Assembly: GCA_019745575.1 (NCBI GenBank)
Contig: JAIETA010000163.1
Location: 1-33,109 of the forward strand
Direction of reading: 5' to 3'
DNA from: Reyranella sp.
GTDB lineage: Bacteria; Pseudomonadota; Alphaproteobacteria; Reyranellales; Reyranellaceae
DNA: 33,109 bases
Shown: positions 1 to 17,831 of the stretch, piece after piece
Numbering within the stretch: the stretch's first letter is position 1
Layout of the letters: every line of letters starts with the position of its first letter
Translations under genes and position numbers: made by a program
The notes under the pieces: model-generated
Seen by the model: only the letters and a program-made list of their open reading frames with translations
Told to the model about the DNA's origin: nothing
Databases searched by the model: none

Positions 1-243
1 CGCGGCGGCGATGCGCTTGGCGCTCTGCTCCGCCTCCAGGGCCTCGCGTCGCGGCCGCAGCTCCTCGTCGGCCCGGACCTGCAGCTCCGCCAGCGACAGA
101 TGGGCCATGTGCTGGGGCAGCCGCACATTGTTGCCGTGGATGCGCTTGTAGTAGGCCGCTTCGGCCCACGACAGCGCCTCGATGCGTTCCGGCGGGCGCG
201 CGTGGCCCGGGCCGAAAAGCCGCTCGTTGTCGGTGACTGTCAT
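1..243 (-). CDS. Unrecognised small protein, N-terminal 81 residues (3' end outside the window)
   Basis: The reading frame starts at ATG 243-241 and is still open at position 1, so the C-terminus is missing. The start is supported by an AGGAAA Shine-Dalgarno just upstream and a good promoter at 310-338. The protein is hydrophilic and probably helical, with a conserved-looking core (EALSWAEAAYYKRIHGNN, then VRLPQHMAHLSLAEL) and a charged Glu/Arg-rich stretch. I see no signal peptide or membrane segment and do not recognise the family. A decayed second copy lies at 3974-4152, beyond the GNAT and NRPS-like genes. It aligns over the core but lacks 19 residues of the charged stretch and the whole N-terminus. 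The gene lies downstream of the NRPS-like gene on the same strand but has its own promoter, so shared function is not shown. Confidence 0.65.
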   Translation of the reverse strand, partial: MTVTDNERLFGPGHARPPERIEALSWAEAAYYKRIHGNNVRLPQHMAHLSLAELQVRADEELRPRREALEAEQSAKRIAAA

Positions 244-309
244 GTTCGTTTCCTATCAAGACGGGCCCGAGGGAGGCGCCACCAGCCTAAGGTTTCTTGG
301 CGTTGACCA

Positions 310-338
310 AGTATAGGCACGACAGGATCATATTGCAA
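310..338 (-). promoter_or_regulatory. Sigma70-type promoter of the small gene at 1-243
   Basis: On the minus strand, -35 TTGCAA (338-333) is followed after exactly 17 nt by -10 TATACT (315-310). Transcription would start near 303, leaving a leader of about 60 nt before the ATG at 243. An inverted repeat CTTGG-N6-CCAAG (296-311) overlaps the -10 and start site and could bind a repressor. The same layout is present in decayed form in the second copy (4195-4223). Confidence 0.6.
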
Positions 339-370
339 TAGGCCAAATCCGGTAGGCCGCTGCCCCACCG

Positions 371-389
371 TGCCGGCAGAATGCCGGCA
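371..389 (-). terminator. Hairpin after the NRPS-like gene (candidate terminator, no U-tract)
   Basis: A perfect 8-bp stem, TGCCGGCA-GAA-TGCCGGCA, begins 26 nt past the stop codon of the NRPS-like gene. It has no T-run, so rho-independent termination is only possible, not clear. The identical hairpin recurs at 4256-4274, 27 nt past the stop codon of the cyclase gene. Confidence 0.4.
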
Positions 390-415
390 GTCCGCTGCCG
401 GTCACCTCCCGTCTT

Positions 416-3202
416 TCAGCCTGTCGGGGGAACGGCCGTGGACTTGTGGTGGGCCTGAAGGACCAGACGTGCGAACCGCTCGCTCAGCTCTTCGCCGGCT
501 TGACCGGTCAGCATGGTCGAGTGATCGCCCGGCACGGCGACGATCGAGAGCCGGCTCGTACGCCCGTGCCAGCCGAGATCTTCCGGCGCGCCGGGCCGGT
601 TCTCCTGCGAGCGCAACAGCACGGTCGGCACATCGAGCCGCGGATGGCCTCCGGCGCCGAGCCAGCAGGCGTGGTGGTGGGCGAACAGCCGCATCGTCGC
701 GTGCAGTCGGGCGACGAAAATCACACTGCGCGGCAGCGGCGGATTCAGACCGACGACGGCGCGCACCAGCGCCCTGCCGGCCGGGCTGGCGAAGAATCCG
801 GCCGAAAGCAGAGTCTGAACCAGGCGCGGCCAGTCGCGGCGGCGCAAGCCGCGGCCGTAGCGGCGAATCTCGTCGGCAAAGGATGGCCGGCGCGCCGGAG
901 CGGCCTCGTAGGTCCGGCCGGTGACGTCGGTGTCCAGCACGAGAAGAAGGGCAACCTCGCGCCCGGCGTCGCGAAGCCGCCGGGCGGCCTCGAAGGCGAC
1001 GTCGCCGCCGTCGGAGTAGCCGGCGAACACCAGCGGCCCGACCGGCCGCAGAGCCACGACCTGCCCGACGGCGTGCGCGGCGATCGCCTCGAAGGACGCC
1101 GCGCGGCCGGCAAGCGTCGCGAGGTCCGGATAGCCGATCTGGCGGATGTCGAACTGCCGCAGACAGGCGGCCCGGAACGCCGCGAGGTAGGAATCGCCGC
1201 CGCCGCCCGGCGGAAAGAGAAAGATTGCCGGCTGGTCGGAGGCCAGGGTCTCGCGGGGCAGGGTCAGGCAGCCATCGAGCGCGTGCGCGAGCTGCTCGAC
1301 GGTCATCCGGCCGTCGAAGCGTTCCATGGGCAGCGATCGGCCGCACAACTGCTCGAGGTCGAACACCAGCTGCAGCAGGCGCAGGGAGTCGCCGCCCGAC
1401 TCCTCGAACGAATGCCGGCCCTGTGGCGGTCGGCCCAGGGCGGCGCGCCACGCCGTGTCGACCATCTCGGCCCCGCGGCGGCTGGCCGGTGCCGCCGGCG
1501 CCGCAAGCGGCTCCGCGATCCGGTCCCGTCGCGCCGCATGCGCCAGGAGCGCGTCCTCGTCGACCTTGCGGCCGGGCAGCAGCGGCAAGGCGGAAAGCAG
1601 ATGGATCTCTGCCGGCCGCATGTAGGCGGGCAGCGTGGCGGCCAGGCGGTCGCGCAGAGCGCTCGCCAGACCGGCCGGTGTGTCCCCGTCCGGGACGACG
1701 AAGGCCAGGATGCGCGGCTCGAGGTCGAACCGCCGTGCCAGCACCGCCGCCTCGGCGACACCCGGTGCGCGCCGGAGCTGGGTTTCGATCTCGGCCGGTT
1801 CGACGCGGTTGCCGAGGATCTTGATCTGTCGGTCGCGGCGTCCGAGCGTGACAAATAGGCCGTCGCCGCGCTGTCGCACGAGGTCGCCGGTGCGGTAGAC
1901 TGGAAGGTCGCTGCCTGCCGGGTCGACCTCGAAGGGCCCGGGATGGAGCGCGCCGGCGCGCCAGACGCCGGCCGAGGTCCAGGGGCTGCGCACGACCAGT
2001 TCACCGGCCTCGCCGCACGCGACAGGGCGGCCGGCCTCGTCGACCACGGCGAGGTCGATGCCGGCAAGCGCATAGCCTGCCGGCACGCGGGCGTCCTCGA
2101 CGGGCGGCTCGGCGGGCACGAACCACTGCACCAGCGCCGGCGCCTCGGTGGCGCCGTAGACCGACAATATGCGGCAGTCGGCCGGCAGCACGCGCCGCAT
2201 CTGCTCGAGGTCGATGGCCAGCAGCGCATCGCCCGAGGTCTGGACGCAGCGCAGGGAGGCGAAGGCGCGTCGGGCGTCGGCCAGCCGGCTGACGCTGCGC
2301 CATACGGCGGGAGTCGAGAACATCATGGTCAGGCGCCGGTCCTCGACGGCGCGCACCACCGGGCCGAGCCCGACGCGTTGCAGGTCGAGTTTCACGAGGC
2401 TCGCACCCGACAGCATGACCTCGAAGATCTGCTGCAGACCGCCGATGGTGCTCGGCGAGGCCAGCGACAGCACCTTGTCGTCGGGCCGCAGGTGGACGGC
2501 GTTGATCAGTTCCGAGGCGCGGTGCAGCACGGCGCGCTGCGACAGGGCAATGCCCTTGGGACGGCCCGTGCTGCCGGACGTGTAGACCACGAACGCCGCC
2601 GCCGCCGGCGCAAGCGGCACGGTGGCCGGCGGCGCCACGTGGCTGTCATGACCGACGGCCTTGCCGGCAGCTCCCTCGAGTGCCCCGGCGAGCGCCTCGT
2701 CGAGCGCGATCACGGCCGTGCCGGCCGGCAGCAGCAGGCCGCGGTCGATCTCGTCCTGCCGCATGATCGCCGCGCCGAGGCCGGCATCGCGCACGATTGC
2801 GGCAACGCGGTCCGGCGGATGATGGCGGTCGATCATGATGCAGGGCCGCGCCGCCGCGAGGCAGGCGAGCACGGCCACGGGATAGGCGGCCTCGTTGGGC
2901 AGCAGCACGCCGACCGCCCGGCCCGGCGGCACGGCCGCCTCTATCCGCGCGGCAAGGCGGCAACACGCCCTCCAGATCTCGCCGTAGGTCAGTTGCCCGG
3001 CCGCATCCTCGCAGGCGACGCGATCCGCAAAGGTGCTGGCGGCCTTGGCAAACAGTTCGAGGGCCGGCCGCTCGACCCACGAGGGGTCGAAGGGCGTGAA
3101 TGCGACCGAAGGTCCGTCAAGATCGAGGGGCATGGCCGGCGGGCGCGACCATCGCAGGCCGGCCGGCGCCGAGGGAGTTGGGGCGGAGGGCGGAAGGGTC
3201 AT
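416..3202 (-). CDS. Stand-alone NRPS-like protein, A-T-TE architecture
   Basis: A 928-residue protein starting at ATG 3202, 23 nt after the GNAT gene. Residues about 45-560 are an AMP-forming adenylation domain: A3 [13 protein letters not shown] (205-217), YGATE (349-353), YRTGD (436-440), A8 from LGRRDRQIK (453-461) and a candidate A10 lysine K546. Residues about 575-645 are a carrier domain with GGDSL, phosphopantetheine site Ser606. Residues about 655-920 are a thioesterase with GYSDG (Ser730), a likely Asp near 757 and His894. There is no condensation, reductase or epimerase domain. By eye, the position of GrsA Asp235, which holds the alpha-amino group, is Ile253, so a standard alpha-amino acid substrate is doubtful. 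The protein probably activates one carboxylic acid, loads it on its own carrier and releases it as free acid, ester, amide or dimer. The product is unknown. The GNAT partner could acylate substrate or product. Confidence 0.9.
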
Positions 3203-3225
3203 CGACGGCGGTGAACGGTCTGACC

Positions 3226-3891
3226 TCAGGAGGCGCGGAACAGCGGTTCGACGAAGCCGCGTCGGGCGAGAAACAGGGGCCGCGATCGCGCGGTGCGCTG
3301 GATATAGAACACGCGGCCGCACTCGCGCCAGCCCAGCGTCGCCAGGCCGCCATGGCTGCCCGTTCGGTCGAGGCTGGCGAGCGTATAGGCGTGGCGGTCG
3401 CCGCGGTCGCGCGCATGGCTCAACATCGCACGCAGGACGAAGGCATGAAGGCCGCGACCGCGGAATTCGGCCGGCGTCAGCGCGTCGGTGGTGTAGACCT
3501 CGCCGGGCTTCAGGCGGATCGGATGGCCCGGCAGGGCATCGCCCCAGCTGGCGCAAAGCCAGTTGATGTGGGCCACCCGCCCGCGATGGCTGGCGATGAA
3601 GCAGAGTTCGCCGCGGCGCAGGCGATCGAGATAGGCCGCCCGACCCGCCGTCCGGGCGTCGATGCCGTCGGTCGCCTCGCCGAGGAACAGCCACGGGTCG
3701 CCGGCATAGAGGGCGCAGATCAGGTCGAGGTCGGGCTCGGCTGCGATGCGCAACGAGACCTCGAGCGGCGGCGCGATCTCGGGCAGCGGCGGCGCGAGAG
3801 GCCGTTCCAGCAAGACGTCGCCGTGCAGCTGGCCGACCGGCGCGGCGAGGCGCTTGCCGATCGTCCAGAGTCGCGCCGGCATCTTCATCAT
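3226..3891 (-). CDS. GNAT-family N-acyltransferase
   Basis: A 221-residue protein. The start is taken at the tandem ATG-ATG (3891/3888), since further upstream the frame runs through the decayed repeat copy. Motif A of the GNAT fold is seen as TPAEFRGRGLHAFVLRAML (139-157), with RGRG (144-147) as the acetyl-CoA pyrophosphate loop. The preceding strand GEVYTTDAL and the later FYIQRTARSRPLFLARRGF fit the usual C-terminal part of such enzymes. No signal peptide is present. It is followed after 23 nt by the A-T-TE gene and is very likely co-transcribed with it, which suggests that it transfers an acyl group to the substrate or product of that enzyme. Acceptor and donor cannot be read from the sequence. 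Confidence 0.8.
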   Translation of the reverse strand: MMKMPARLWTIGKRLAAPVGQLHGDVLLERPLAPPLPEIAPPLEVSLRIAAEPDLDLICALYAGDPWLFLGEATDGIDARTAGRAAYLDRLRRGELCFIASHRGRVAHINWLCASWGDALPGHPIRLKPGEVYTTDALTPAEFRGRGLHAFVLRAMLSHARDRGDRHAYTLASLDRTGSHGGLATLGWRECGRVFYIQRTARSRPLFLARRGFVEPLFRAS

Positions 3892-3973: not shown

Positions 3974-4152
3974 TCAGTCTCGCGCCGGATCCGCGGGATT
4001 GGCAACGGGGTTGCCGGCGGCGATGCGCTTGGCGCTGCGCTCGGCCAGCGACAGATGGGCCGCATGCCGGGGTAGCCGCACATTGTCGCGGTAGATGCGC
4101 TTGTAGTCGGCCGCTTCGGCCCACGACAGCGCCTCGATGCATTCCGACGGGT
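3974..4152 (-). pseudogene. Decayed copy of the small ORF at 1-243
   Basis: The minus-strand frame encodes ECIEALSWAEAADYKRI, then VRLPRHAAHLSLAER and SAKRIAAG, followed by a short tail ending at TGA 3976-3974. This matches the gene at 1-243 but lacks 19 internal residues (57 nt, in frame) and its N-terminal part. The DNA that carries the start codon and Shine-Dalgarno in copy 1 is absent here and no replacement start is obvious. I regard it as a non-functional remnant of a duplication. Confidence 0.75.
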
Positions 4153-4194
4153 GCGGGCGGGGCGCCGCCGGCCTGGGGTTCTTGGTCTTGGCCA

Positions 4195-4223
4195 AGCATA
4201 GGCATGACAGGATCGTATTGAAG
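4195..4223 (-). promoter_or_regulatory. Weakened duplicate promoter upstream of the GNAT/NRPS-like pair
   Basis: This is the same position in the repeat as the promoter at 310-338. The minus strand reads CTTCAA (4223-4218), 17 nt, TATGCT (4200-4195). The inverted repeat CTTGG-N6-CCAAG is kept at 4181-4196. With its own ORF dead, any activity left would read into the GNAT gene about 300 nt downstream. Confidence 0.35.
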
Positions 4224-4255
4224 TCGCCTAGATCCGGTAGGTCGGCCCCCCACCG

Positions 4256-4274
4256 TGCCGGCAGAATGCCGGCA
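4256..4274 (-). terminator. Hairpin after the cyclase gene (candidate terminator, no U-tract)
   Basis: TGCCGGCA-GAA-TGCCGGCA again, identical to 371-389 and 27 nt past the cyclase stop codon. No T-run follows, so its role as a terminator is inferred from position alone. Confidence 0.4.
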
Positions 4275-4301
4275 GTCCGCCGGGCGACCGGCCGGCCCGT
4301 C

Positions 4302-5255
4302 TCAGCGGGCGCCGTCGATCTCGGCGAGGCGGATCTCGGCCAGGGCCTTGAACTCGCCCTCGGGATACTTCTCGAGATAGGCGTGCAGCGAGGCCGGGTT
4401 GTCGCTCTCGCGCACCGATTCCCAGAACGACAGTTCGACCTCGCGGTCCTGCGGATCGCGCATGCCGCCCTGGGCCGAGGCGAACTCTTCGAGGCGGGTA
4501 CGCGCCAGGGCCGCGAAGCTGCCGTCGGGATACTGCTCGAGGTAGGCCTCGTAGTCGGCGGCGCGCGCGCTCTCCTTGATCGATTCCCAGAACACGATCT
4601 CGACCGACTGCTGCTCGGCCGCCGTCGGCTCGGCGGGCGGCGTCTCGACCGACAGCCGGTCCGTCGCCGCGGACTCGCGTGCGAGTTCGATCGGCACCGC
4701 CAACGGCGTCTCGTCGTCGCCGTCGGCGGCATCGGGCAGCAGGCGGAAGACGCGGATCGGCTGGGCGATGTTCTTGACCGTCTGCTCGCCCAGGTCCCCG
4801 AAACCGTAGGGCACCTTGTGCCTTATGTGATCGCGTACGCCGCGCGAGATGCAGATGCCGCCGGCCGCGGCGAGCCCCTCGAGGCGCGCCGCGATGTTGA
4901 CGCCGTCGCCGAAGATGTCGCCGTCTTTCACCATGACGTCGCCGACATTGATGCCGATGCGGAAGAGCATGCGCTTGTCCTCGGGCAGCGCCTCATTGGC
5001 CGAGGCGAGGTCGCGCTGGATATCGACGGCGCAGTCGACGGCGGCGAAGACGCTGGCGAACTCGGCCAGAATGCTGTCGCCGGCCGTGCCGCAGATCCGC
5101 CCACCGTGCCGGGCGATCAGCGCATCGGTGACGGCGCGGTGCGCCGACAGGGTCGCGAGCGTGCCTTCCTCGTCGGTGCCCATCAGGCGGCTATAGCCCT
5201 CGATGTCGGCAGCGAGGATGGCGATCAGCTTGCGTTCGAGCGGCGGCGCTTCCAT
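4302..5255 (-). CDS. Class III adenylate/guanylate cyclase with two C-terminal repeats
   Basis: A 317-residue protein from ATG 5255; GTG 5270 in the same frame would add five residues, and neither start has a clear Shine-Dalgarno. Residues about 7-175 are the catalytic domain. The metal-binding aspartates are in LAADIEGYS (D17) and GTAGDSILAEF (D60), and the transition-state residues are in FGDGVNIAARLE (N120, R124). All key residues are present, so the enzyme should be active as a dimer making a cyclic nucleotide. After a Glu/Ala-rich linker come two repeats of about 40 residues (218-257 and 273-312), each built on FWES-x5-14-YL-x-YP-x-G-x-F-x-LA-x-x-RL. No membrane segment or sensor domain precedes the catalytic part, so regulation may come through the repeats. 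The gene is divergent from the CBS gene. Confidence 0.9.
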   Translation of the reverse strand: MEAPPLERKLIAILAADIEGYSRLMGTDEEGTLATLSAHRAVTDALIARHGGRICGTAGDSILAEFASVFAAVDCAVDIQRDLASANEALPEDKRMLFRIGINVGDVMVKDGDIFGDGVNIAARLEGLAAAGGICISRGVRDHIRHKVPYGFGDLGEQTVKNIAQPIRVFRLLPDAADGDDETPLAVPIELARESAATDRLSVETPPAEPTAAEQQSVEIVFWESIKESARAADYEAYLEQYPDGSFAALARTRLEEFASAQGGMRDPQDREVELSFWESVRESDNPASLHAYLEKYPEGEFKALAEIRLAEIDGAR

Positions 5256-5421
5256 GTCGGTGGGGCTCACCGGCCGGCGGCGCGCAATGGCGCCCGGGCA
5301 TCTGACTTCGAGGGCCGGAACATCGATGACTCCTGGCGGCGGTTGCCGGCAGGAGAGTTAACGCCGCCGGACGCCGCATGTTCCGCAAGCGGCTGCGGCG
5401 AGGAAGGCGCTACCGTCGATC

Positions 5422-5450
5422 GGGGCGCAGGTGCGCCCCCAAGGGGGCGC
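5422..5450. other. Two mutually exclusive hairpins in the cyclase/CBS intergenic region
   Basis: GGGGCGCA-GG-TGCGCCCC (5422-5439) and GCGCCCCC-AA-GGGGGCGC (5433-5450) share their middle strand, so only one can form at a time. They lie between two divergent genes, upstream of the FNR-like promoter and outside either coding region. The rest of 5256-5459 shows nothing else I can name. Confidence 0.4.
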
Positions 5451-5459
5451 TCCGGCCGT

Positions 5460-5501
5460 TTGACGCAGGTCAATCGGCGGGGCCGGCCGCCGGCGTAGTT
5501 T
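5460..5501 (+). promoter_or_regulatory. FNR/FixK-type box with -10 element driving the CBS gene
   Basis: TTGAC-GCAG-GTCAA (5460-5473) is a perfect match to the CRP/FNR-family consensus TTGAY-N4-RTCAA used by FNR, FixK and Dnr proteins. A -10-like TAGTTT lies at 5496-5501, giving a start site near 5508. The box centre (5466.5) would then be at about -41.5, the standard position for class II activation. The leader to the ATG at 5576 would be about 68 nt. Low-oxygen activation is inferred from this match. Confidence 0.65.
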
Positions 5502-5575
5502 GTGACAGTCCGGTGACGATGGTGCGGTGACGGTGCCGTGCGCCGGCCGTTCACAGCTTGTGCGGGGACATTGCG

Positions 5576-5995
5576 ATGAGACAGCTCCAGGACATCGTGT
5601 GGGACCAGAAGCCGGTGATGCTGCCGCCGACCGCCAGCGTGACGGCGGCGTGCCAGGCGATGCGCGATCGCCGCGTCGGCTCGGTCGTGGTGGCCGCGGC
5701 CGACGGCCGGCTGGCCGGCATCTTCACCGGCCGCGACGCGGTGTGCCGCGTGCTGGCAGCCGGCCGCGACCCCGCGACGACCAGCCTGGCCGAGGTGATG
5801 ACGGCCAACCCCGCGACGCTGGCGCCGCACCAGAGCGCGCTCGATGCGTTGCGTCTGATGTGGGACGGCGGCTATCGCCACCTGCCGCTGGTCAAGGCAG
5901 GCCGGGTGGTGGGCGTCGTCTCGCGCGGCGACTTCAAGGGCCTGGAACATCACCGTCACGACGAGGAGCGCGACCTCTGGGAGCACATGCGGTAG
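5576..5995 (+). CDS. CBS-domain pair protein
   Basis: A 139-residue soluble protein. The start at ATG 5576 is chosen over TTG 5558 because GGGGA lies 8 nt upstream. Two CBS motifs are seen: the first ends in VGSVVVAAADGRLAGIFTGRD, the second spans about residues 70-125 and ends in PLVKAGRVVGVVSRGDF. A short His/Glu-rich tail follows. Tandem CBS domains bind adenine nucleotides or S-adenosyl ligands and act as sensors, and no effector domain is attached. The upstream FNR/FixK-like box suggests induction under oxygen limitation, as for many stand-alone CBS and universal-stress proteins in alphaproteobacteria. The partner is unknown. Confidence 0.85.
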   Translation: MRQLQDIVWDQKPVMLPPTASVTAACQAMRDRRVGSVVVAAADGRLAGIFTGRDAVCRVLAAGRDPATTSLAEVMTANPATLAPHQSALDALRLMWDGGYRHLPLVKAGRVVGVVSRGDFKGLEHHRHDEERDLWEHMR

Positions 5996-6025
5996 CGGTC
6001 GAAATCAGACACAAGAATCCCATGG

Positions 6026-6103
6026 GCGAGCGGGACGCTCGCGGTCCGGAAGATCATGAGTCTTCCGGACCGCGCGCATCTCAGGGCGAAGTTTACTTCG
6101 CCC
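6026..6103. repeat. Cluster of three perfect stem-loops (REP-like)
   Basis: Between the CBS and hydrolase genes stand GCGAGCG-GGA-CGCTCGC (6026-6042), a 13-bp stem with 7-nt loop (arms 6041-6053 and 6061-6073, starting GCGGTCCGG), and GGGCGAAGT-TT-ACTTCGCCC (6084-6103). The first two stems share two bases. The segment 6061-6082 recurs with one mismatch at 11111-11132, which marks it as a dispersed element rather than a simple terminator. Confidence 0.6.
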
Positions 6104-6198
6104 GACGCGCTCATCGCTTTCCGTGTGTCGCCATCGAGAAGAGCCGACCGGGCGCGTCGGCGATTTGCCGCGGTGGCCGGCGTGCGCAATGATCGGGC

Positions 6199-6915
6199 AT
6201 GAAAACCTTCGCCCTCGGCCTGCTCCTCCTGCTGTCCGGCCTCGCCAGCGGCGCGGCGGCGCGCGACGAACTGGCGACCTCGGCCCCGATGTCGGGCGGC
6301 GAGACCGTGCCCTACATCCTGACGAGCAAGCCGGGCACGCCGGCCTACGCCGTGATCCTGACGCCGGGCGGCTCGGGGGTGATGAATCCCCGCATGGAGG
6401 CGGGCAAGCTCACCTTCGCCTTCGCCGGCAATTTTCTCATCCGCTCGCGCGAGCTGTTCGCCGACGGCCGCTTCGTCGCCGCCTCGACCGACGCGACCTC
6501 GACTCCGGCGCGCATCCTGGCGATCGTCCAGGACCTGCAGCGCCGCTACGGCGGGATCACGGTCTACGTCGTCGGCACCAGCTGCAGCACCGAGGCCACC
6601 ATGAAGCTGAGCGCGCCGCTCGACGGCCAGGTGGCGGGCTTCGTCCACACCTCGTCGATGAACAGCATCGCGGGTTTCGATCCGCGCCGGTTCAAGAGCC
6701 GCCATCTCGTCGTCTGGCACCGCATGGATGCCTGCCGGGCGACCAAGCCGTCGGCCAGCGCCGGCTCGCGCTCGAGCTACGGCACCGAGGCCATCGAGAT
6801 GGAGGGCGGCACGTCGGTCGGCGACGACTGCGAGGCGCGGTCTCATCACGGCTACAACGGCCTCGAGGCCGAGACCGTCGCCAAGATCAAGGCGTGGATG
6901 CTGGCCGTCCGGTAG
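6199..6915 (+). CDS. Secreted alpha/beta-hydrolase-like protein
   Basis: A 238-residue protein with an N-terminal signal peptide (hydrophobic stretch 4-16, probable cleavage after GAAA near residue 21), so it is probably periplasmic. The fold is suggested by strand AYAVILTPGGSG (49-60, oxyanion-like turn), nucleophile elbow VVGTSCST (124-131) with Ser128, a possible acid D177 in WHRMDAC and His216/217 in ARSHHGY. The elbow reads GTSCS rather than GxSxG; the last position is Ser instead of Gly. Four cysteines (129, 179, 211 and neighbours) could form disulphides. The substrate is unknown. The start has no strong Shine-Dalgarno but fits the signal peptide. It stands alone after the hairpin cluster. 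Confidence 0.7.
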   Translation: MKTFALGLLLLLSGLASGAAARDELATSAPMSGGETVPYILTSKPGTPAYAVILTPGGSGVMNPRMEAGKLTFAFAGNFLIRSRELFADGRFVAASTDATSTPARILAIVQDLQRRYGGITVYVVGTSCSTEATMKLSAPLDGQVAGFVHTSSMNSIAGFDPRRFKSRHLVVWHRMDACRATKPSASAGSRSSYGTEAIEMEGGTSVGDDCEARSHHGYNGLEAETVAKIKAWMLAVR

Positions 6916-7015
6916 GCCACGTCGTCCGCCGGCGCCATGCGCGGCTGGTCATTCAGACTGCCCCAGAACGATGTTGCGCGGAGCGGCAATCGGAGGAGCA
7001 TTGCGTCAGTCGATG

Positions 7016-7056
7016 GGTGCACGCGGTGCGTGTCGAAACCCGACACGCCGTGCACC
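7016..7056 (+). promoter_or_regulatory. Long hairpin just upstream of the ribosome binding site of the 7075 gene
   Basis: The left arm 7016-7035 and right arm 7041-7056 pair over 16 bp with a 4-nt bulge (7024-7027) and an AAACC loop (7036-7040). The innermost part is GCGTGTCG-AAACC-CGACACGC. It ends 6 nt before the strong AAGGAGG (7063-7069), so it would be close enough to affect translation or mRNA stability, or to be a DNA operator. Confidence 0.5.
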
Positions 7057-7074
7057 TGCGAGAAGGAGGGAGCG

Positions 7075-7335
7075 ATGGCCGTGAGTTTCTTCTTCGCCAA
7101 CCCGAGCTGGCAGGCCAATGGGACGGTCAACTGGTGGTTCGACGTCGGCGACAGGGACAATTTCTGGAGTGTTTCGGTGCGGCCTTTCCAGGCGAACGAC
7201 CGCGTTCGTCTGGAAGGCGGCATAGACTCGATCTCGGACAACAACCTGAAGCAGCGCACCGAATTCAGGGTCACGATGACCGCCAGCGGGGGCGGCGGGC
7301 TCGTCAAGCTGACGGCGATTAGGGTGACGCCATGA
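7075..7335 (+). CDS. Unrecognised 86-residue protein, probably beta-rich
   Basis: The start at ATG 7075 is fixed by AAGGAGGG 5-11 nt upstream; the frame's earlier ATG at 6937 has no such signal. The protein is short, without signal peptide or cysteines, with alternating hydrophobic and polar residues and many aromatics (SFFFANPSWQANG, VNWWFDVGDRDNFWSV) and a Gly-rich turn near residue 74. This pattern suggests a small beta-sandwich. I do not recognise the family. Its stop overlaps the next start (ATGA at 7332-7335), so the two are translationally coupled and probably act together. A large hairpin precedes the ribosome binding site. Confidence 0.75.
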   Translation: MAVSFFFANPSWQANGTVNWWFDVGDRDNFWSVSVRPFQANDRVRLEGGIDSISDNNLKQRTEFRVTMTASGGGGLVKLTAIRVTP

Positions 7336-7565
7336 AACTCTATGTCGTTCATGATGCGCGTGGGCGCATCCGCGCCGCCACGATGGTGGCAGGAGAAAAC
7401 GAGGCCGTGCTGTGCGGGCCGCTGCCGGGCAGGGGCCAGAAGGCGGCCGAGATCGAGGTTGCCCGAGAGCATCGCGAGTTCGGGCTCGAAAAGCTCTGCA
7501 CGTCCTTCCGTGTCGACACGCGTGGCGACCGGCCGCGGCTCGTCGAGGTCGCGAAACGGCGCTGA
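7332..7565 (+). CDS. Unrecognised 77-residue protein coupled to the 7075 gene
   Basis: Starts inside the stop of the preceding gene (ATGA). It begins MKLYVVHDARGRIRAA, then alternates basic and acidic residues (AAEIEVAREHREFGLEKL), with one Cys in LEKLCTSFRVD. There is no signal peptide or membrane segment. The first 30 residues look like two beta strands with a turn. The family is not recognised; tight coupling suggests a partner of the 7075 protein. It is convergent with the SOUL gene, whose stop lies 26 nt away. Confidence 0.7.
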   Translation: MKLYVVHDARGRIRAATMVAGENEAVLCGPLPGRGQKAAEIEVAREHREFGLEKLCTSFRVDTRGDRPRLVEVAKRR

Positions 7566-7590
7566 GGGTGCGGGAGCCCACGTCGCCCGC

Positions 7591-8232
7591 TCAGGGCGTC
7601 CGCGCCGCCACCGGCACCGAGACCTCGTTGCGCCGCAGCCAGGGCAGCGTCCACGGCGGATCGTAGAACCATGCCGAGGCGGGCCCGTCGGCGCGCCACG
7701 ACGCGGCCGCCATGGCCTCCAGCAGGGCTCGCTCTTTCGCGGCGACGGCGGCGGCCGAGCGGTCGCCGGAGAAGCGCAGGACGGCCACCTGTTGGGCCGG
7801 CACCTCGACGATCTGGACGGCGGAGTCGTTCGGCCGCGGCAGGGTGGCCAGGGTGTAGCGGCCGGGCATGAAGAAGCGGATGCGCCAGCGTCCAGGGGCC
7901 ACGCTCTCCTGCGCCACCGGCGCCGTCATGGCGATCGGCTCGGACGTCTGCGCCACCGGGGCGGTCATGGCGATGTCCTGCCGCGCCGTGTTGCCGCCGA
8001 AGATGTAGGCCGCCAGCCGCCGGAAGCCCTCGTTGCGGGCCGCCTCCTCGTCGCCCTCGACGAAGGTCTCGGCGGCGAGCCGCGGGCCGTAGGTCCGGAC
8101 CTCGATCTCGCCGAGCCTTGTGTCGACCGTGTAGGGCGGCTCCTCGGTGCCGCCGCGCACGCCCACCACCGAGCAGCCCGCCACCGCGAGGCCGGACAGC
8201 AGCGCCATCGCCTTGTTCATCAGGCTCCCCAT
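7591..8232 (-). CDS. SOUL heme-binding family lipoprotein
   Basis: A 213-residue protein from ATG 8232, which overlaps the MAPEG stop (TGATG); ATG 8220, preceded by GGGGAG, is a good alternative giving 209 residues. The N-terminus has a signal peptide with lipobox LAVAGC, so it is likely a lipoprotein facing the periplasm. SOUL features are the early YTVDTRLGEIEVRTYGPRL, then EGFRRLAAYIFGGN, a doubled IAMTAPVAQ, the late WRIRFFMPGRYTLATLP and VAVLRFSGD. The family binds heme or porphyrins in some members; the physiological role here is unknown. It is co-transcribed with a MAPEG gene. Confidence 0.88.
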   Translation of the reverse strand: MGSLMNKAMALLSGLAVAGCSVVGVRGGTEEPPYTVDTRLGEIEVRTYGPRLAAETFVEGDEEAARNEGFRRLAAYIFGGNTARQDIAMTAPVAQTSEPIAMTAPVAQESVAPGRWRIRFFMPGRYTLATLPRPNDSAVQIVEVPAQQVAVLRFSGDRSAAAVAAKERALLEAMAAASWRADGPASAWFYDPPWTLPWLRRNEVSVPVAARTP

Positions 8233-8636
8233 CAGACGACTCCGCTGCCGAGCTTGGTGAGGGCGCCCCACAGGCAGGCGGCGGCCGCGATGCCGATCAT
8301 CCAGAAAGTCGCCACGACCCCGGCGACGCGGAAGGCGAAGTTTTCCCGGGGCTGCGACATGCCGGCGGCGTGCGCCAGCCGGCCCGCCACCAGGGCGATG
8401 CCGAGCCCGTGCAGCAGCCAGGCGTTGGTGCCGAGGCTTTCCGCCAGCGCCAGCAGCAGGAGCGCCAGCGGCACGTACTCGGCGAAGTTGGCGTGCACGC
8501 GCATGCACCGCGCGAGGACGGCATCGCCGCCGTCGCCCACCGCGACGCGCGCCCCGCGGCGGGCGCGGATGACCCGGCTCGACAACAGCAGGAAGAGGGG
8601 TGCCAGCAGGCTGGCGTAGAGGGCGGCGATGGGCAC
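8232..8636 (-). CDS. MAPEG-family membrane protein
   Basis: A 134-residue integral membrane protein with GTG start at 8636 and an AAGGA Shine-Dalgarno about 10 nt upstream. It has about four hydrophobic helices: PIAALYASLLAPLFLLLS, YVPLALLLLALAES, LLHGLGIALVAGRLAHA and VAGVVATFWMIGIAAAACL. MAPEG hallmarks are RCMRVHANFAEYVPL and the later GRLAHAAGM. The family includes glutathione-dependent transferases; bacterial members are mostly of unknown substrate. The stop overlaps the SOUL start by one base, so the two are translationally coupled. Confidence 0.88.
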   Translation of the reverse strand: MPIAALYASLLAPLFLLLSSRVIRARRGARVAVGDGGDAVLARCMRVHANFAEYVPLALLLLALAESLGTNAWLLHGLGIALVAGRLAHAAGMSQPRENFAFRVAGVVATFWMIGIAAAACLWGALTKLGSGVV

Positions 8637-8804
8637 GCGCAGAAAGTCCTTCGGTCGGTCACTGGCGCCGGCGGCGCGGCCAGCCTCCTTAGACGCGGCA
8701 AGCGGCGCGGCGGATCAATCGACGGTGCCGGGAGGCGGGATCGGCCCTTGCCGACGCGCGGGCGGCGGGAGGACGATCGACGGATCAACCGGAGGGCCGT
8801 TGCC

Positions 8805-9014
8805 ATGGCACGCGTGAAGTGGAGCGACCGGCCGCGCACCCATCGCGGGGCGATCATCGGGGCGTTCGCGGGCATGGCCATGGCGGCCGTCGCGGTCTTC
8901 GAATATGCCGTCCACGGCAGCCTATTCGATCGCTACCTGATCATGGTGACCGGCCTGCTGGTCGGCGGCGGCGTGGGCGCGCTGATCGCCAGGGTGACCG
9001 CGCCGCGACCTTGA
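8805..9014 (+). CDS. Small two-helix membrane protein, unrecognised
   Basis: A 69-residue protein from ATG 8805, with GGAGG 9 nt upstream. A basic N-terminus (MARVKWSDRPRTHRG) leads to two transmembrane helices, GAIIGAFAGMAMAAVAVF (15-32) and YLIMVTGLLVGGGVGALIA (44-62), with many small residues that could favour helix packing. No function can be assigned. It is divergent from the MAPEG gene. The 168 bp between them show nothing I can name. Confidence 0.65.
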   Translation: MARVKWSDRPRTHRGAIIGAFAGMAMAAVAVFEYAVHGSLFDRYLIMVTGLLVGGGVGALIARVTAPRP

Positions 9015-9039
9015 CCGCCTTACCCTTATAGGGTAGTCG
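9011..9039 (+). promoter_or_regulatory. mqsRA promoter with MqsA-type operator
   Basis: The palindrome TACCCT-TAT-AGGGTA (9021-9035) resembles the E. coli MqsA operator (AACCT-N3-AGGTT) in arm pattern and spacing. It sits between TTGACC (9011-9016, -35-like) and a weak -10 position 17 nt later (9034-9039). Binding there would block RNA polymerase, giving the usual autorepression by antitoxin. Confidence 0.65.
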
Positions 9040-9046
9040 GGGCGAG

Positions 9047-9349
9047 GTGGAAAAGCGCACACTGCACTACGATCTGGCCCGCATCCAGGCGGATGTGCGG
9101 CGGCTCGGCGCGGCGGCGTTCACCAGGACCGCCCTCGACGGCGGCCGGGCAATGGGCCTCACGTCGGCGGAGATGCTCGGGGTGATCGCCGCGCTGTCGC
9201 GGCGCGAGTTCTACAAGTCGATGACGAGCTATGCCGACCACCGCGTATGGCAGGACGTCTATCACGCACCGACGCCGGTGCGGAAAGAGGCCTACATCAA
9301 GGTGACCCTGCGCGACGGCGCGCCGGTGATCCAGTTCAAGGAGAGGTGA
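9047..9349 (+). CDS. mqsR: MqsR-family toxin (mRNA interferase)
   Basis: A 100-residue protein with GTG start at 9047, chosen because the product begins MEKRTLHYDL, like E. coli MqsR (MEKRTPHTRL). The conserved stretch REFYKSMTSYADHRVWQDVY is followed by AYIKVTLRDGAPVIQFKER. The active-site residues of MqsR fall at K57, Q69 and Y83, so the toxin looks intact. It is a ribonuclease of RelE-like fold that cuts mRNA, mainly at GCU in E. coli. It is the first gene of a two-gene operon; the antitoxin gene begins one base after its stop. The Shine-Dalgarno is weak, which may keep toxin levels low. Confidence 0.92.
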   Translation: MEKRTLHYDLARIQADVRRLGAAAFTRTALDGGRAMGLTSAEMLGVIAALSRREFYKSMTSYADHRVWQDVYHAPTPVRKEAYIKVTLRDGAPVIQFKER

Positions 9350-11199: not shown

Positions 11200-14100
11200 C
11201 TACTCCGCCGCCGCCTTCATCGCTTCCGGGTTGCGCCACTGGTGCAGCAACTCGGCTTCCTTCTTCTTCGCCTTCGCGAGATGCGCGTCCTTGACGTGGC
11301 CGTAGCCTTTTATGTCGTCTGGGATCGACGCCAGTTTGATCGCCAGGGCGTGGTTGGCGGGCGACAGGCCTTTTAGCAGCTCCGCCACCAGCGCCTCGTA
11401 CTGGCCGATCAGGGCGCGCTCGGTCCGCCGCTCCTCGGTGTAGCCGAAGATGTCGAAGCGGGTGCCGCGCAGCCCTTTTAGCCTGGCCAGCATCTTGAAG
11501 GCGGGCAGCATCCAGGCGCCGAACTCCTGCTTGATCAGGTGGCCGGTCTGCGGATCGCGCTGGGCGAACAGCGGCGGCGCCAGGTGGAATTTGAGCTTGT
11601 AGGCGCCCTCGAACTGGCCGGACAGCTGGGCCTCGAACGCGGCATCGGCATAAAGCCGCGCCACTTCGTACTCGTCCTTGTAGCTCAGAAGCTTGGAATA
11701 ACAGCGCGCCACGACTTCAGCCAAACCGGTGAGGCCGATCTTCTGTTCGGCCGCACGCACTTTCTCGACCAGCGCCTTGTAGCGTTGGGCGAGGGCTTCG
11801 TTCTGGTAGCCGGCGAGGTGCTTCATCCGGACGGCCACGATTTCGTCGAGCGTTTTGGCGAGGCGGGTGAAGGGAACCACCGTTGCGGGCGGGGCCGCCA
11901 GCTTCTCGACCGCGGCGCGGTCGGCGGCGGCGCGGCGGCCCCAGCGGAAGGCCGCGGTGTTCATGGCGACGGCGGCGCCGTTCAGCTCGATCGCCTGCTC
12001 CAGCGCCTCGTGGCCGGCCGGGATCAGGCCCTGCTGGTAGGCATAGCCCAGCATGAACATGTTGGTGGCGATGGAATCGCCCATCAGGCCGGTGGCGAGG
12101 CCGGTGGCGTCGAGGAAGTCGCAGGCCGCCGCGCCGGCCGCCGCTTCGATCGAGAGTCTTAGCGTGTGCGAGGGGAAGGCGATGTCGGGATGGCGGGTGA
12201 ACTCGCCGGTGATGGTCTCGTGCGTGTTCACGATGGCGCGCGACGCGCCGGTTTCCAGCCGGGCCAGCGCGTCGGCACTGGCGCTCACCACGAGGTCGCA
12301 GCCCAGCAGCAGGTCGGCGCCGCCGGCGCCCAGTCGAACGGCATGCAACGCCTCGGGCGTGGCGCCCAGACGCACATGGCTGATCACCGCGCCGCCCTTC
12401 TGCGCCATGCCGAGCTGGTCGAGCACGGTGACGCCCTTGCCTTCTATGTGCGCGGCCACGCCCAGGATGGCGCCGATGGTGACGACACCCGTGCCGCCGA
12501 TGCCGGTGATCAGCACGCCGTATGGCTTGTCGGCGAGTGCGGGCAGGGTGGGCGCGGGCGGCATCTCGGGCTCGGCCTTGTCAGCGGCGGCTGCCGCCGG
12601 CTTGCCGGCCTTTCCCCCCATGGACTGGCCTTTGCGCAGGCTGCCGCCCTCGACCGTGACGAAGGAGGGGCAGAAGCCTTTCAGGCACGAGAAATCCTTG
12701 TTGCAGGACGACTGGTCGATGGCCCGCTTGGAGCCGAACTCGGTCGCGACCGGCGTGACCGACAGGCAGTTGGACTGCACCGAACAGTCGCCGCAGCCCT
12801 CGCACACCGCCTGGTTGATCAGCACGCGCTTGGCCGGGTCGGGATAGGTGCCGCGCTTGCGGCGGCGGCGCTTTTCGGCAGCACAGGTCTGGTCGTAGAT
12901 CAGGACCGAGACGCCCTTGTGCTCGCGCAAGCTCCTCTGGACCTCGTCGAGCTGGTCGCGGTGATGGAAGGTGACGCCCGGCGCCCATTCGGTGCCGACC
13001 GGATACTTGTGCGGCTCGTCGCTCACCAGGGCGATGCGGTCGACACCCTCGGCGCGGACCTGGCGGCTGATGCGCCACGGCGTCACGTCGCCGTCGTGCG
13101 GCTGGCCGCCGGTCATGGCGACGGCGTCGTTGTAGAGGATCTTGTAGGTGATGTTGGTCTTGGTCGCGATGGCGTGGCGGATCGCCAGGATGCCGGAGTG
13201 GAAATAGGTGCCGTCGCCCAGGTTCTGGAAGACGTGCGGCATGTCGGTGAACAGGCTGGCGCCGACCCACGGCACGCCCTCGGCGCCCATGTGGGTAAAA
13301 GTCCTGGTGTTGCGCTCCATGCCGATGGCCAGCGTGTGGCAACCGATGCCGGCCATCGCCATCGACCCGTCGGGCACCTTGGTCGAGGTGTTGTGCGGAC
13401 AGCCGGAGCAGAAATAGGGCACGCGGGCGAGGCCCGATTCGTTGCGCACCTGGCGGCCGGCGCGACGCTTTAGCGCCTCGAAGCGCTGCTTGCTGCGCTC
13501 GCCGAGGCCCGCGAGGCCGAAGCGGGCGACCAGGACCGAGGCGATCTCGAACGGCGTCAGCTCGCCGTCGCTCTTGAACAGGTGCTGGCCGCGCTCGTCG
13601 TGCTTGCCGACCACGACCGGGCGACGGCCGATCTCCATGTTGAACAGCGCGTCCTTCAGCTGCTGCTCGATCAGCGGCCGCTTCTCCTCGATCACCAGGA
13701 TCTCGCGCTTGCCGGCGGCGAAGGCTGCGGCGCCCTCTGTCTCGAGCGGCCACACCAGCCCCACCTTGTAGATGGCGAGCCCCAGCCGCTCGGCCTCGGC
13801 ATCGTCGATGCCGAGCTCGTCCAGCGCCTGGCGGACGTCGAGGTAGGACTTGCCCACCGTGACGATGCCGAAGCGCGCGTCGGCGCGGCCCATCATCAGC
13901 CGGTCGAGCCGGTTGGCGCGCCAGTAGGCAAGCGCCGCCGGAATCTTCACCTGGTAGACGCGGCGCTCCTGGCCCAGCCAGTCGTCGGGCCAGCGGATGT
14001 GCACGCCGTCGGCCGGCAGGTGATGGTCGGACGGGGTGTGGATTTCCAGGCGGTGCGGATCGACATGGACCGAGGCCGAGGAATCCACCGTCTCGCTCAG

Positions 14101-14700
14101 CACCTTGAAGCCGACCCAGAGGCCGGAATAGCGCGACATCTCGAAAGCGTGCAGGCCCCAGTCGAGATACTCCTGCACGCTGGCGGCATGGATCACCGGC
14201 ATGCCTGCGGCGATGAAGGCGGGCTCGCTCTGGTGCGCCACGGTCGAGGACTTGGCCATGTGGTCGTCGCCGGCCAGCGCCACGATGCCGCCGTACCTGG
14301 ACGTTCCGGCGTAGTTGGCGTGCTTGAGAACGTCGCCGGAGCGGTCGACGCCCGGGCCCTTGCCGTACCACATGCCGAACACGCCGTCGTAGCGCGCGCC
14401 GGGGTAGAGATGGATCTGCTGGGTGCCCCACAGCGCCGTGGCGGCGAGGTCCTCGTTGGTGCCGGGCTGGAAGCGGATGTGGTTCTTTTCGAGGAAGCGC
14501 TTGGCCTGCCACAGCGCCTGGTCGAAGCCGCCGAGCGGCGAGCCGCGATAGCCGCTGATGTAGGCGCCGGTGTTGAGGCCGGCGGCCAGGTCGCGCTGGC
14601 GCTGCATCATGGGCAGCCGGACCAGCGCCTGCGTGCCGGTCAGGTACACCCGGCCCGCGTCGAGCAGGTACTTGTCGTCCAGGGTCACCGCAAGGGTCAT
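11200..14700 (-). CDS. Indolepyruvate ferredoxin oxidoreductase, fused alpha-beta (IorAB type)
   Basis: A 1166-residue protein from ATG 14700, with GGGAGG 5 nt upstream. The N-terminal part carries the pyruvate-type substrate domain (TGAYISGYRGSPLGGFD). The ThDP domain follows, with QNLGDGTYFHSG near residue 495 and NDAVAMTGG. A ferredoxin-like centre has C633, C636, C639 and C645 (CEGCGDCSVQSNC), with more cysteines at 666, 672 and 677. After an Ala/Pro linker, the gamma/beta domain begins at about 727 (ITGIGGTGVV, later AQKGGAVISHVR). The enzyme decarboxylates aryl-2-oxo acids such as indolepyruvate to acyl-CoA while reducing ferredoxin. Fused forms of this length are typical of proteobacteria. 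The exact substrate cannot be read from sequence. Confidence 0.9.
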   Translation of the reverse strand: MTLAVTLDDKYLLDAGRVYLTGTQALVRLPMMQRQRDLAAGLNTGAYISGYRGSPLGGFDQALWQAKRFLEKNHIRFQPGTNEDLAATALWGTQQIHLYPGARYDGVFGMWYGKGPGVDRSGDVLKHANYAGTSRYGGIVALAGDDHMAKSSTVAHQSEPAFIAAGMPVIHAASVQEYLDWGLHAFEMSRYSGLWVGFKVLSETVDSSASVHVDPHRLEIHTPSDHHLPADGVHIRWPDDWLGQERRVYQVKIPAALAYWRANRLDRLMMGRADARFGIVTVGKSYLDVRQALDELGIDDAEAERLGLAIYKVGLVWPLETEGAAAFAAGKREILVIEEKRPLIEQQLKDALFNMEIGRRPVVVGKHDERGQHLFKSDGELTPFEIASVLVARFGLAGLGERSKQRFEALKRRAGRQVRNESGLARVPYFCSGCPHNTSTKVPDGSMAMAGIGCHTLAIGMERNTRTFTHMGAEGVPWVGASLFTDMPHVFQNLGDGTYFHSGILAIRHAIATKTNITYKILYNDAVAMTGGQPHDGDVTPWRISRQVRAEGVDRIALVSDEPHKYPVGTEWAPGVTFHHRDQLDEVQRSLREHKGVSVLIYDQTCAAEKRRRRKRGTYPDPAKRVLINQAVCEGCGDCSVQSNCLSVTPVATEFGSKRAIDQSSCNKDFSCLKGFCPSFVTVEGGSLRKGQSMGGKAGKPAAAAADKAEPEMPPAPTLPALADKPYGVLITGIGGTGVVTIGAILGVAAHIEGKGVTVLDQLGMAQKGGAVISHVRLGATPEALHAVRLGAGGADLLLGCDLVVSASADALARLETGASRAIVNTHETITGEFTRHPDIAFPSHTLRLSIEAAAGAAACDFLDATGLATGLMGDSIATNMFMLGYAYQQGLIPAGHEALEQAIELNGAAVAMNTAAFRWGRRAAADRAAVEKLAAPPATVVPFTRLAKTLDEIVAVRMKHLAGYQNEALAQRYKALVEKVRAAEQKIGLTGLAEVVARCYSKLLSYKDEYEVARLYADAAFEAQLSGQFEGAYKLKFHLAPPLFAQRDPQTGHLIKQEFGAWMLPAFKMLARLKGLRGTRFDIFGYTEERRTERALIGQYEALVAELLKGLSPANHALAIKLASIPDDIKGYGHVKDAHLAKAKKKEAELLHQWRNPEAMKAAAE

Positions 14701-14870
14701 GGCAACCTCCCTGTTTGTTATGTAGGGACCGTAGCGACAGATTCTTACGCCTTTCAATCGGGAACGCGCGCGGCGTGCAACAAAGACGTTTTGAAGACGC
14801 CGCGGCCCGCCGATCGTGCGCACCGTTTCAAGGTGTCGCCCGGGAATGAAATGTTGTAATCACCCGCCGC

Positions 14871-15854
14871 ATGTCCGTTCTGGTCACCGGGGTCGCCGGC
14901 TTCATCGGCTCGCACGTCGCCGGAGCCCTGCTGGCGCGGGGCGAGGCCGTGGTCGGCGTCGACAACTTCTCCGACTACTACGACCCGGTGCTGAAGTTCG
15001 CGCGGCTGAAGCCGCTGCGCGAGGACAAGGGTTTTCACTTCCTCGAGGCCGACGTGGCCGACCGCACCGCGATGCTGGATCTCGCCCGCCAGTACGGCGA
15101 TCTCGACCGTATCGTGCACCTGGCGGCGCAGCCCGGCGTGCGCCATTCGATGGTCGATCCCTACATCTACGTGCAGACCAACGTTATGGGTCATCTCGTG
15201 ATGCTGGAGCTGGCGCGCGGCCTCGCCACGCAAAAAGAGGGCGGCCTAAAACACTTCGTCTACGCCTCGTCCTCGTCGGTCTATGGCGGCAACGCCAAGC
15301 TGCCGTTTGCCGTGTCGGACCCGGTCGACCGGCCGGTGTCGCTCTACGCCGCCACCAAGCGCGCCGACGAGCTGATGACCGAGACTTATGGCCATCTCTA
15401 CGGCCTCCGCGCGACCGGCCTGCGCTACTTCACGGTCTACGGGCCGTGGGGCCGGCCCGACATGTCGCCCTGGATCTTCGCCAAGGCGATCCACGAAGGC
15501 CGCACGCTGCATCTCAATCATCAGGGCCGCATCAGGCGCGACTTCAGCTACATCGACGACATCGTGGCCGGCACGCTGGCCGTGCTCGACAGGCCGCCGG
15601 CCGCGGCCGGCCACCGGGTCTACAACCTGGGCGCCGCGCGGAGCGAGGACATCGGCCGAGTCGTGGCGCTGTTCGAGAAGGCGCTGGGCCGCACGGCCCA
15701 GGTCGAGCTGAGGCCGGGCGAGCCCGGCGACATGCCGGAAACCGCGGCCGACATCGAAGGCACCACGCGCGACTTCGGCTGGACGCCCAAGGTGACGGTC
15801 GAGCAGGGCATTCCGCTCTTCGTCGACTGGTTCAAGACGTACAATCGGCTCTGA
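14871..15854 (+). CDS. NAD-dependent epimerase, UDP-glucuronate 4-epimerase-like
   Basis: A 327-residue extended short-chain dehydrogenase. TGVAGFIGSH (6-15) is the NAD Rossmann motif, D31 in VGVDNFSDYYD binds the adenosine ribose, YASSSSVYGG (131-140) supplies the catalytic Ser, and YAATK gives Tyr159 and Lys163. LRYFTVYGPWGRPDMSPW is characteristic of UDP-GlcA 4-epimerases, so it probably makes UDP-galacturonate for surface polysaccharide. The long KP-rich NFSDYYDP segment also fits. No other polysaccharide genes are adjacent except the epimerase fusion at 19166. It is divergent from IorAB over 170 bp, where I see no convincing promoter. Confidence 0.88.
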   Translation: MSVLVTGVAGFIGSHVAGALLARGEAVVGVDNFSDYYDPVLKFARLKPLREDKGFHFLEADVADRTAMLDLARQYGDLDRIVHLAAQPGVRHSMVDPYIYVQTNVMGHLVMLELARGLATQKEGGLKHFVYASSSSVYGGNAKLPFAVSDPVDRPVSLYAATKRADELMTETYGHLYGLRATGLRYFTVYGPWGRPDMSPWIFAKAIHEGRTLHLNHQGRIRRDFSYIDDIVAGTLAVLDRPPAAAGHRVYNLGAARSEDIGRVVALFEKALGRTAQVELRPGEPGDMPETAADIEGTTRDFGWTPKVTVEQGIPLFVDWFKTYNRL

Positions 15855-15919
15855 GGGGCGTCTGTGACTTGCGCGGAACTGCGCACGGCCCCATCTCTGG
15901 GGGCATCAGGAGTGTGTGA

Positions 15920-17689: not shown

Positions 17690-17708
17690 CGATGTCGATG
17701 GAGAACAG

Positions 17709-17815
17709 CCTCATGCTGAGGAGCGCGCGCAGCGCGCGTCTCGAAGCATGGGCCGCACGCACTCTGTTGCCCACCCTTCGAGACGCGACCCTGCGGGTCG
17801 CTCCTCAGGGTGAGG
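17709..17815. repeat. Long imperfect palindromic intergenic repeat
   Basis: The left arm 17709-17752 (from CCTCATGCTGAGGAGCG to GTCTCGAAGCATGGG) and right arm 17770-17815 (from CCCACCCTTCGAGACGC to CTCCTCAGGGTGAGG) are reverse complements with some mismatches. They enclose a 17-nt loop and each arm holds a smaller inner hairpin. Elements of this kind, with a CTTCGAGACGC and CTCCTCAGG core, are abundant in several alphaproteobacterial genomes. It fills the 142 bp between the peptidase and the ABC1 kinase. Confidence 0.75.
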
Positions 17816-17831
17816 TGGCGTTGTAACTGGT

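Follow-up and report, generated by a model that had tools for sequence, protein, structure and literature searches.

The 33,109-nucleotide contig JAIETA010000163.1 of Reyranella sp. (assembly GCA_019745575.1), referred to as the window, encodes a single-module enzyme resembling the nonribosomal peptide synthetases (NRPSs), composed of adenylation (A), carrier (T) and thioesterase (TE) domains, together with a small acyltransferase of the GNAT fold. The pairing of the two genes is real and conserved in the genus, and they probably form a functional two-gene unit. The A domain carries isoleucine (Ile253) in the column of the aspartate that contacts the amino group in ordinary A domains, and alanine (Ala351) in place of the proline of the YGPTE motif. 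With confidence just short of even, the window is proposed to hold an accessory small-molecule locus, in which the A-T-TE enzyme would activate an acid lacking an alpha-amino group, with an alpha-keto acid as the likeliest candidate, and the GNAT protein would serve the same pathway. The window represents a whole contig (C338) of a source genome of 4.9 Mb in 364 contigs.

A conserved gene pair in Reyranella

The pair and its parts are placed as follows.

416..3202, minus strand: A-T-TE, single-module NRPS-like enzyme, 928 residues (open reading frame, ATG start, Pfam, full-length homologue alignment)
3226..3891, minus strand: GNAT-fold acyltransferase, 221 residues (fold of the predicted model, structure matches; present in 10 of 65 genus genomes, the source genome included)
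1580..3052, minus strand: adenylation domain, residues 51-541 (PF00501 at 51-414, PF13193 at 471-541)
1277..1456, minus strand: carrier domain, residues 583-642, with attachment site Ser606 (PF00550)
437..1225, minus strand: thioesterase domain, residues 660-922, with putative triad Ser730/Asp757/His894 (PF00975 at 660-785)
2444..2446, minus strand: codon of Ile253, column of the amino-contacting Asp (HMMER to LgrA; MAFFT)
2150..2152, minus strand: codon of Ala351, replacing the Pro of YGPTE (LgrA Pro483, StsA Met415; HMMER to LgrA chain 9be3_A)

The GNAT gene lies upstream of the A-T-TE gene on the same strand, with a gap of 23 bases; the A-T-TE open frame extends to 3913, but the homologues begin close to the ATG at 3202. 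Pfam searches detected AMP-binding, AMP-binding_C, PP-binding and Thioesterase in the A-T-TE protein and no condensation domain, in agreement with a preliminary description of this DNA that had proposed a single module ending in its own TE. The end of the TE domain was set by the last helix of a predicted model. In an alignment of eight homologue rows (A1), D440, K546, S606, S730, D757 and H894 are invariant, as is the YTSGSTG motif apart from Thr212, which is Ser in L028; the triad roles of Ser730, Asp757 and His894 are presumed by likeness to known TE domains. The codons of these six residues, as well as those of Ile253 and Ala351, were verified in the DNA. The T-domain motif reads GGDSL in 12 of 13 Reyranella-group T domains and RGDSL in the remaining one (L033).

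The predicted model of the whole A-T-TE protein (mean predicted local distance difference test score, pLDDT, 76.2; predicted template modelling score 0.52) has known NRPS modules as its best 50 structure matches, and pocket geometry was not taken from it. Its closest PDB sequence match is LgrA, with 269 bits summed over two A domains, and the best 60 PDB sequence matches are general NRPS A domains. A family name via NCBIfam was sought and given up: 100 families match at E <= 0.001, and all of the 25 matches listed score under their cut-offs. No close identity to a characterised enzyme was found in the PDB or, among the matches listed, in NCBIfam. Three stretches of viral contigs fit a search pattern, none of them encoding an A-T-TE relative.

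Comparison of 65 genus genomes (the source genome included) found the A-T-TE gene in 11, the GNAT gene in 10 and both in nine (Fisher 1.7e-8, uncorrected for kinship), which upholds the pairing put forward in the preliminary description; the A-T-TE gene was found in none of 10 other genomes of the family at E <= 1e-60. The GNAT gene is upstream on the same strand in all eight loci with both genes (the window, L024, L025, L027, L028, L031, L032 and L033), and on a different contig from the A-T-TE gene in genome G028. Direct adjacency is seen in three of these loci (the window, L024 and L028), and oppositely directed genes intervene in the other five, among them a coenzyme A (CoA)-ligase alpha-type subunit and, in two loci, Liv-type transporter genes. 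In L024, genes of this kind lie upstream on the same strand. At E <= 1e-120 the CoA-ligase subunit occurs in eight of the 65 genomes, all of them GNAT genomes, and the Liv-type permease in four, all with the A-T-TE gene; neither was found in the window genome at this threshold. The CoA-ligase subunit was rejected as an obligatory partner, its best match in the window genome being 31% identical and none reaching E <= 1e-120.

A "small" pathway, as first suggested, fits the window itself, but in many relatives a lasso-type cassette, a Liv-type transporter or a CoA-ligase subunit is encoded next to these genes. The word "undescribed" holds for the scope of the literature searched, in which no description was found. 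That search found nothing on an A-T-TE enzyme with an acetyltransferase and adenylation in alphaproteobacteria, and little on Reyranella natural products.

The adenylation pocket and its likely substrate

HMMER alignment placed Ile253 opposite the Asp of both LgrA A domains (residue 396 in 9be3_A) and Ala351 opposite the Pro of the LgrA YGPTE motif (residue 483 of the same chain). Ile253 had already been aligned by eye with Asp235 of GrsA, an assignment borne out here, and Ala351 adds a second pocket change. In a MAFFT alignment of the family, Ile occupies the Asp column in 26 of 26 A domains (15/15 in the Reyranella group and 11/11 in a sister group), and the YGPTE Pro is found in 0 of 26. 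The Reyranella group comprises 15 A domains of 13 loci, namely 14 rows from the genus and L050, which groups with them, and the sister group comprises 11 rows from other Alphaproteobacteria. In the tree, a branch with support 100/98 separates the 26 Ile domains from the other rows; the program warned of long branches meeting among the outer rows. Asp is present in nine of ten NRPS controls from plasmid records and so is the YGPTE Pro (9/10), these controls being hand-chosen from 18 listed non-A-T-TE hits and including two near-identical rows (L103 and L105).

Published work gives both changes a possible meaning. As described in excerpts of the review PMC11253843, the keto-acid-selecting StsA carries Ile instead of the amino-contacting Asp and Met instead of the conserved Pro, and the substitutions P483M and P483A in LgrA produced a small but significant rise in keto-acid activity. 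Because StsA is altered at both places and the LgrA variants gain keto-acid activity, an alpha-keto acid would be the likeliest substrate of the window A domain, at a probability a little below even. Passages of PMC10949194 further state that keto-acid A domains typically carry an aliphatic residue for Asp235, and passages of PMC10316625 that a Val as the first residue of the code is a sign of keto-acid A-T-TE enzymes. StsA, compared here by description and not by sequence, shares with the window enzyme the replacement of Asp by Ile and a residue other than Pro in the YGPTE motif; it belongs to a depsipeptide synthetase module, whereas the window protein has A, T and TE domains only (Pfam). 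The depsipeptide module of StsA includes a ketoreductase domain.

Keto-acid enzymes of the A-T-TE type are already known, and judged by its pocket and layout the window enzyme is a predicted variant of them. The quinone and furanone synthetases (fungal AtrA, NPS3 and CorA; bacterial RalA and EchA, with DatA like EchA) share with it the A-T-TE layout lacking a condensation domain and an aliphatic first code position, Val in those enzymes and Ile in the window enzyme; the window differs in its GNAT partner, and was set beside AtrA, RalA, EchA and DatA by descriptions only. The layout of DatA is likewise A-T-TE. Excerpts of PMC10316625 describe this layout for quinone synthetases, with RalA and EchA as the bacterial counterparts, and excerpts of PMC9379647 report that DatA of Streptomyces converts phenylpyruvate to polyporic acid in vitro. 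Single-module A-T-TE enzymes are small and tractable, and a conserved bacterial family with both keto-acid pocket marks, a GNAT partner and a natural empty site would let the two-residue rule be tested beyond the few enzymes described; it could also lead to new small acyl products from Reyranella.

Several observations weigh against a keto-acid enzyme with a dedicated partner. The YGPTE Pro is often lost in acyl- and aryl-acid ligases. Control L106 (Paracoccus alcaliphilus plasmid p305818; YGTSE for YGPTE) has Ile and Thr in the two pocket columns, its next residue being Asp, so that a one-position alignment shift is possible, and the A domain L002 of the window genome keeps Asp yet has Ala at the Pro column. 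Neither mark is therefore specific, and on account of L002 the keto-acid reading was rated slightly lower, and the amino-acid and aryl- or fatty-acid alternatives slightly higher. The two-mark rule is also weakened by the distant profile matches L068-L070, in which the Asp column holds Ser or Asn and the Pro column holds Ser. The window genome gave 22 matches, four of which (L002-L005) were aligned besides the window protein; its AMP-ligase rows L003-L005, with Met, a gap and Met at the Asp column, were left out of the final MAFFT alignment. Reading a substrate code from the other pocket residues (G, Q, F, Q, S, V, A, L) was abandoned, no checkable code having matched. At the genome level, the A-T-TE gene occurs with no GNAT match in G027 (listed as 100% complete) and G032 (60%), the GNAT gene occurs without the A-T-TE gene in G058 (84% complete), and the CoA-ligase subunit is missing at E <= 1e-120 in four of the 11 A-T-TE genomes (G000, G027, G032 and G050). 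HcaB, a presumed keto-acid domain, retains the Asp according to passages of PMC10949194, and McyG has Val at the Asp position, yet activates L-Phe (PMC11253843, in excerpt).

Since McyG takes L-Phe with Val at this position, Ile253 is no proof of a missing amino group. The earlier proposal of an acid lacking a free alpha-amino group is supported insofar as Ile253 and Ala351 both point that way, but it does not follow from the missing Asp. On the McyG precedent, the window enzyme might activate an ordinary amino acid despite the Ile. Its TE would then set free either a dimer or the aminoacyl group, with the GNAT protein N-acylating the amino acid or the product. In keeping with this, the best NCBIfam model for the A domain is TIGR01733 (amino acid adenylation, 262.5 bits), an amine would give the GNAT partner its most plausible role, and the Asp-bearing L002 shows Ala at the YGPTE Pro to be compatible with amino acids. 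The score of TIGR01733 nevertheless lies under its cut-off of 317.4, and the Asp is replaced and the Pro absent throughout the 26 family domains; we regard activation of an amino acid as unlikely, though a serious contender.

Activation of an aryl or fatty acid instead of a keto acid, with a TE that hydrolyses the acyl group off or passes it to the GNAT protein, would also suit the missing amino-gripping Asp and the secondary matches to acyl-CoA ligase models such as TIGR03098 (exosortase A-associated acyl-CoA ligase, 205.1 bits) and PRK06187 (166 bits). These scores are, however, far under their cut-offs (592.35 for TIGR03098), and the combination of Ile with a non-Pro residue is the one reported, in the excerpts cited above, for the keto-acid domain StsA, making such a substrate quite improbable.

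The GNAT partner and the proposed pathway

The assignment of the second protein relies on its fold. It matches no Pfam family at E <= 1, scores 19.6 bits against the NCBIfam model GNAT_ablB (cut-off 205.1) and has a best PDB sequence match at E = 0.044, while five of eight aligned members match Acetyltransf_1 at E <= 1 (best E 1.1e-4). The predicted model (mean pLDDT 87.5) matched GNAT structures broadly, with Z of at least 8 in 935 of 999 aligned chains among the Foldseek top hits, a top Z of 16.1 and sequence identities of 6-19% among the best 50 matches. MshD (mycothiol synthase), VipF and glycine N-acyltransferase share the fold, which gives no indication of substrate or function. The acyl-CoA motif of GNAT enzymes is Q/R-x-x-G-x-G/A; the window protein reads R144-G-R-G147-L-H149 there, and the final position is His in all eight rows.

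Briefly, in the pathway that we infer, the A domain would adenylate a carboxylic acid that has no alpha-amino group, an alpha-keto acid being the likeliest, and would load it onto the enzyme's own carrier serine. The acyl group would then pass to the TE, which would either condense it with a second acid or a nucleophile or hydrolyse it off, in the manner of the A-T-TE keto-acid synthetases. The GNAT protein would belong to this pathway too and would probably transfer an acyl group to an amine or hydroxyl, either on the product or on an acceptor molecule. CoA may provide the donor, given that the CoA-ligase alpha-type subunit is present in eight of the 10 GNAT genomes, the window genome being one without it. 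Substrate, product and GNAT role are all proposed here from sequence comparison. The initial suggestion that the GNAT protein N-acylates the activated substrate is not supported, since an acid of this kind offers no amino group for N-acylation and this half of the suggestion conflicts with the first. The preliminary description also raised the carrier-bound acid as a possible acyl donor for the GNAT protein.

Relatives, neighbourhoods and flanking repeats

In wider searches at E <= 1e-100, the A-T-TE profile matched six of 385 genomes of the class, of which two are Reyranella (the source genome included), and eight of 398 genomes of the phylum (source genome included), the two draws overlapping. 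Relatives in other Alphaproteobacteria, including those on Mesorhizobium plasmids pMLb and pMspAR07a, match the profile, have Ile and lack the YGPTE Pro (11/11 rows) and lie with the Reyranella group on one side of the 100/98 branch. Several adjoin polysaccharide-type or Asn-synthase genes and some a second AMP-ligase and an acyl carrier protein (ACP); no homologue of the window GNAT was found at E <= 1 on 14 stretches from these bacteria. In four of them (L046 at 11911-19551, L093, L097 and L100) the A-T-TE gene is accompanied by genes for an Asn synthase, an ACP and a further AMP-ligase, and an NAD-synthase-like protein is annotated in L046 and matched by Pfam in L100.

Such neighbours raise the alternative that the acyl group decorates a larger molecule, a polysaccharide or, in some Reyranella, a lasso-type peptide, with transfer by the TE or the GNAT protein. 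The relative in L095 adjoins Wzz, Polysacc_synt, glycosyltransferase and Asn-synthase genes (Pfam), BLAST families common to L095 recur in L094, L096, L098 and L099, and the NAD-epimerase-type gene of the window (14871-15854) is 45% identical to one in L100. A lasso-type cyclase (Asn-synthase) homologue also lies downstream on the same strand in six of the 13 Reyranella-group loci (L026, L027, L029, L032, L033 and L050). Against this, no lasso-type gene was found on the window contig (E <= 1e-15; the contig ends 415 bases past the A-T-TE gene) or on the stretch of its closest relative, L024, polysaccharide genes not having been searched systematically in either, and the lasso-type Asn-synthase homologue occurs in 41 of 65 genus genomes at E <= 1e-100 as against 11 for the A-T-TE gene. 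Decoration of a larger molecule is accordingly considered rather unlikely, and the lasso cassette was rejected as an obligatory partner, being beside the A-T-TE gene in six of 13 loci with its homologue in 41 of 65 genomes.

In some of these loci, PqqD-like, NTP_transf_5 and HprK-like genes accompany the cyclase gene. Cassettes span 12211-16881 in L026 and 4348-9215 in L050, with candidate precursors at 15291-15566 and 7719-7898, respectively, that carry a KRPYAEPVL or KKPYAEPVL leader, which we take to resemble lasso-type precursor leaders; the L050 candidate matches Pfam DUF5972 at E 0.032. "Lasso-type" is used as a label of likeness, because the NCBIfam lasso models matched under cut-off and no leader protease gene was identified in the cassette parts examined. 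In the source genome, a lasso-type cyclase homologue is encoded together with PqqD-like and NTP_transf_5 genes on another contig, C310 (L076 6569-10924), where the A-T-TE search gave just a weak AMP-ligase match of 46 bits. L032 (4273-8766; Pfam) and L033 (10262-14602; alignment) each encode, in a single frame, a pair of A domains ahead of a single T and a single TE domain (A-A-T-TE), and the two A domains are of two pocket types. A bolder scenario, which we consider a long shot, is that the A-T-TE enzymes form an unrecognised alphaproteobacterial lineage that selects keto acids, recruited the GNAT protein and in some Reyranella was built into lasso-type loci, even as A-A-T-TE, where it would supply an acyl group to a ribosomal peptide; if true, this would link single-module NRPS-like enzymes with ribosomally made peptides.

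Returning to the proposed small-molecule locus, its accessory nature is suggested by two repeats.

3..395, no strand assigned: direct repeat copy 1 with small open reading frame, beyond the TE end (repeat search, BLASTN)
4015..4280, no strand assigned: direct repeat copy 2, upstream of the GNAT gene and shorter than copy 1 (BLASTN)

Copy 2 is 81-91% identical to copy 1 in three BLASTN pieces, and sequence resembling copy 1 is present in 11 of the 65 genus genomes. Genome G055 (85% complete), which lacks both pair genes genome-wide at the thresholds used, has a single copy (L121, 7826-8208; 74% identical to copy 1), directly followed by a cyclase gene (8230-9204, 88% DNA identity) and then by luciferase-like and oxidoreductase genes in the window order. 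The L121 stretch has no match to the GNAT or A-T-TE gene, nor to four window genes between the cyclase and luciferase-like genes. Because the repeats bracket the pair and the corresponding site in G055 holds a single copy without the pair, the pair is probably an accessory insertion. In three other genomes (L122-L124) the small open reading frame is present without the window neighbours. Foreign base composition was examined as a further sign and gave none that was clear: the G+C content is slightly higher in the pair (0.73-0.74 in 1000-base windows, 501-3500) than in the following DNA (0.66-0.72, 4001-8000).

Farther along the window, the cyclase-like protein (4302-5270, PF00211) contains an internal direct repeat (4307-4382 and 4472-4547, 74% identical). 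Positions 11200-14823 encode a fused oxidoreductase that combines TPP_enzyme_C, POR and DUF6537 domains, and 865 of its 1207 residues match the L121 stretch at 87% identity.

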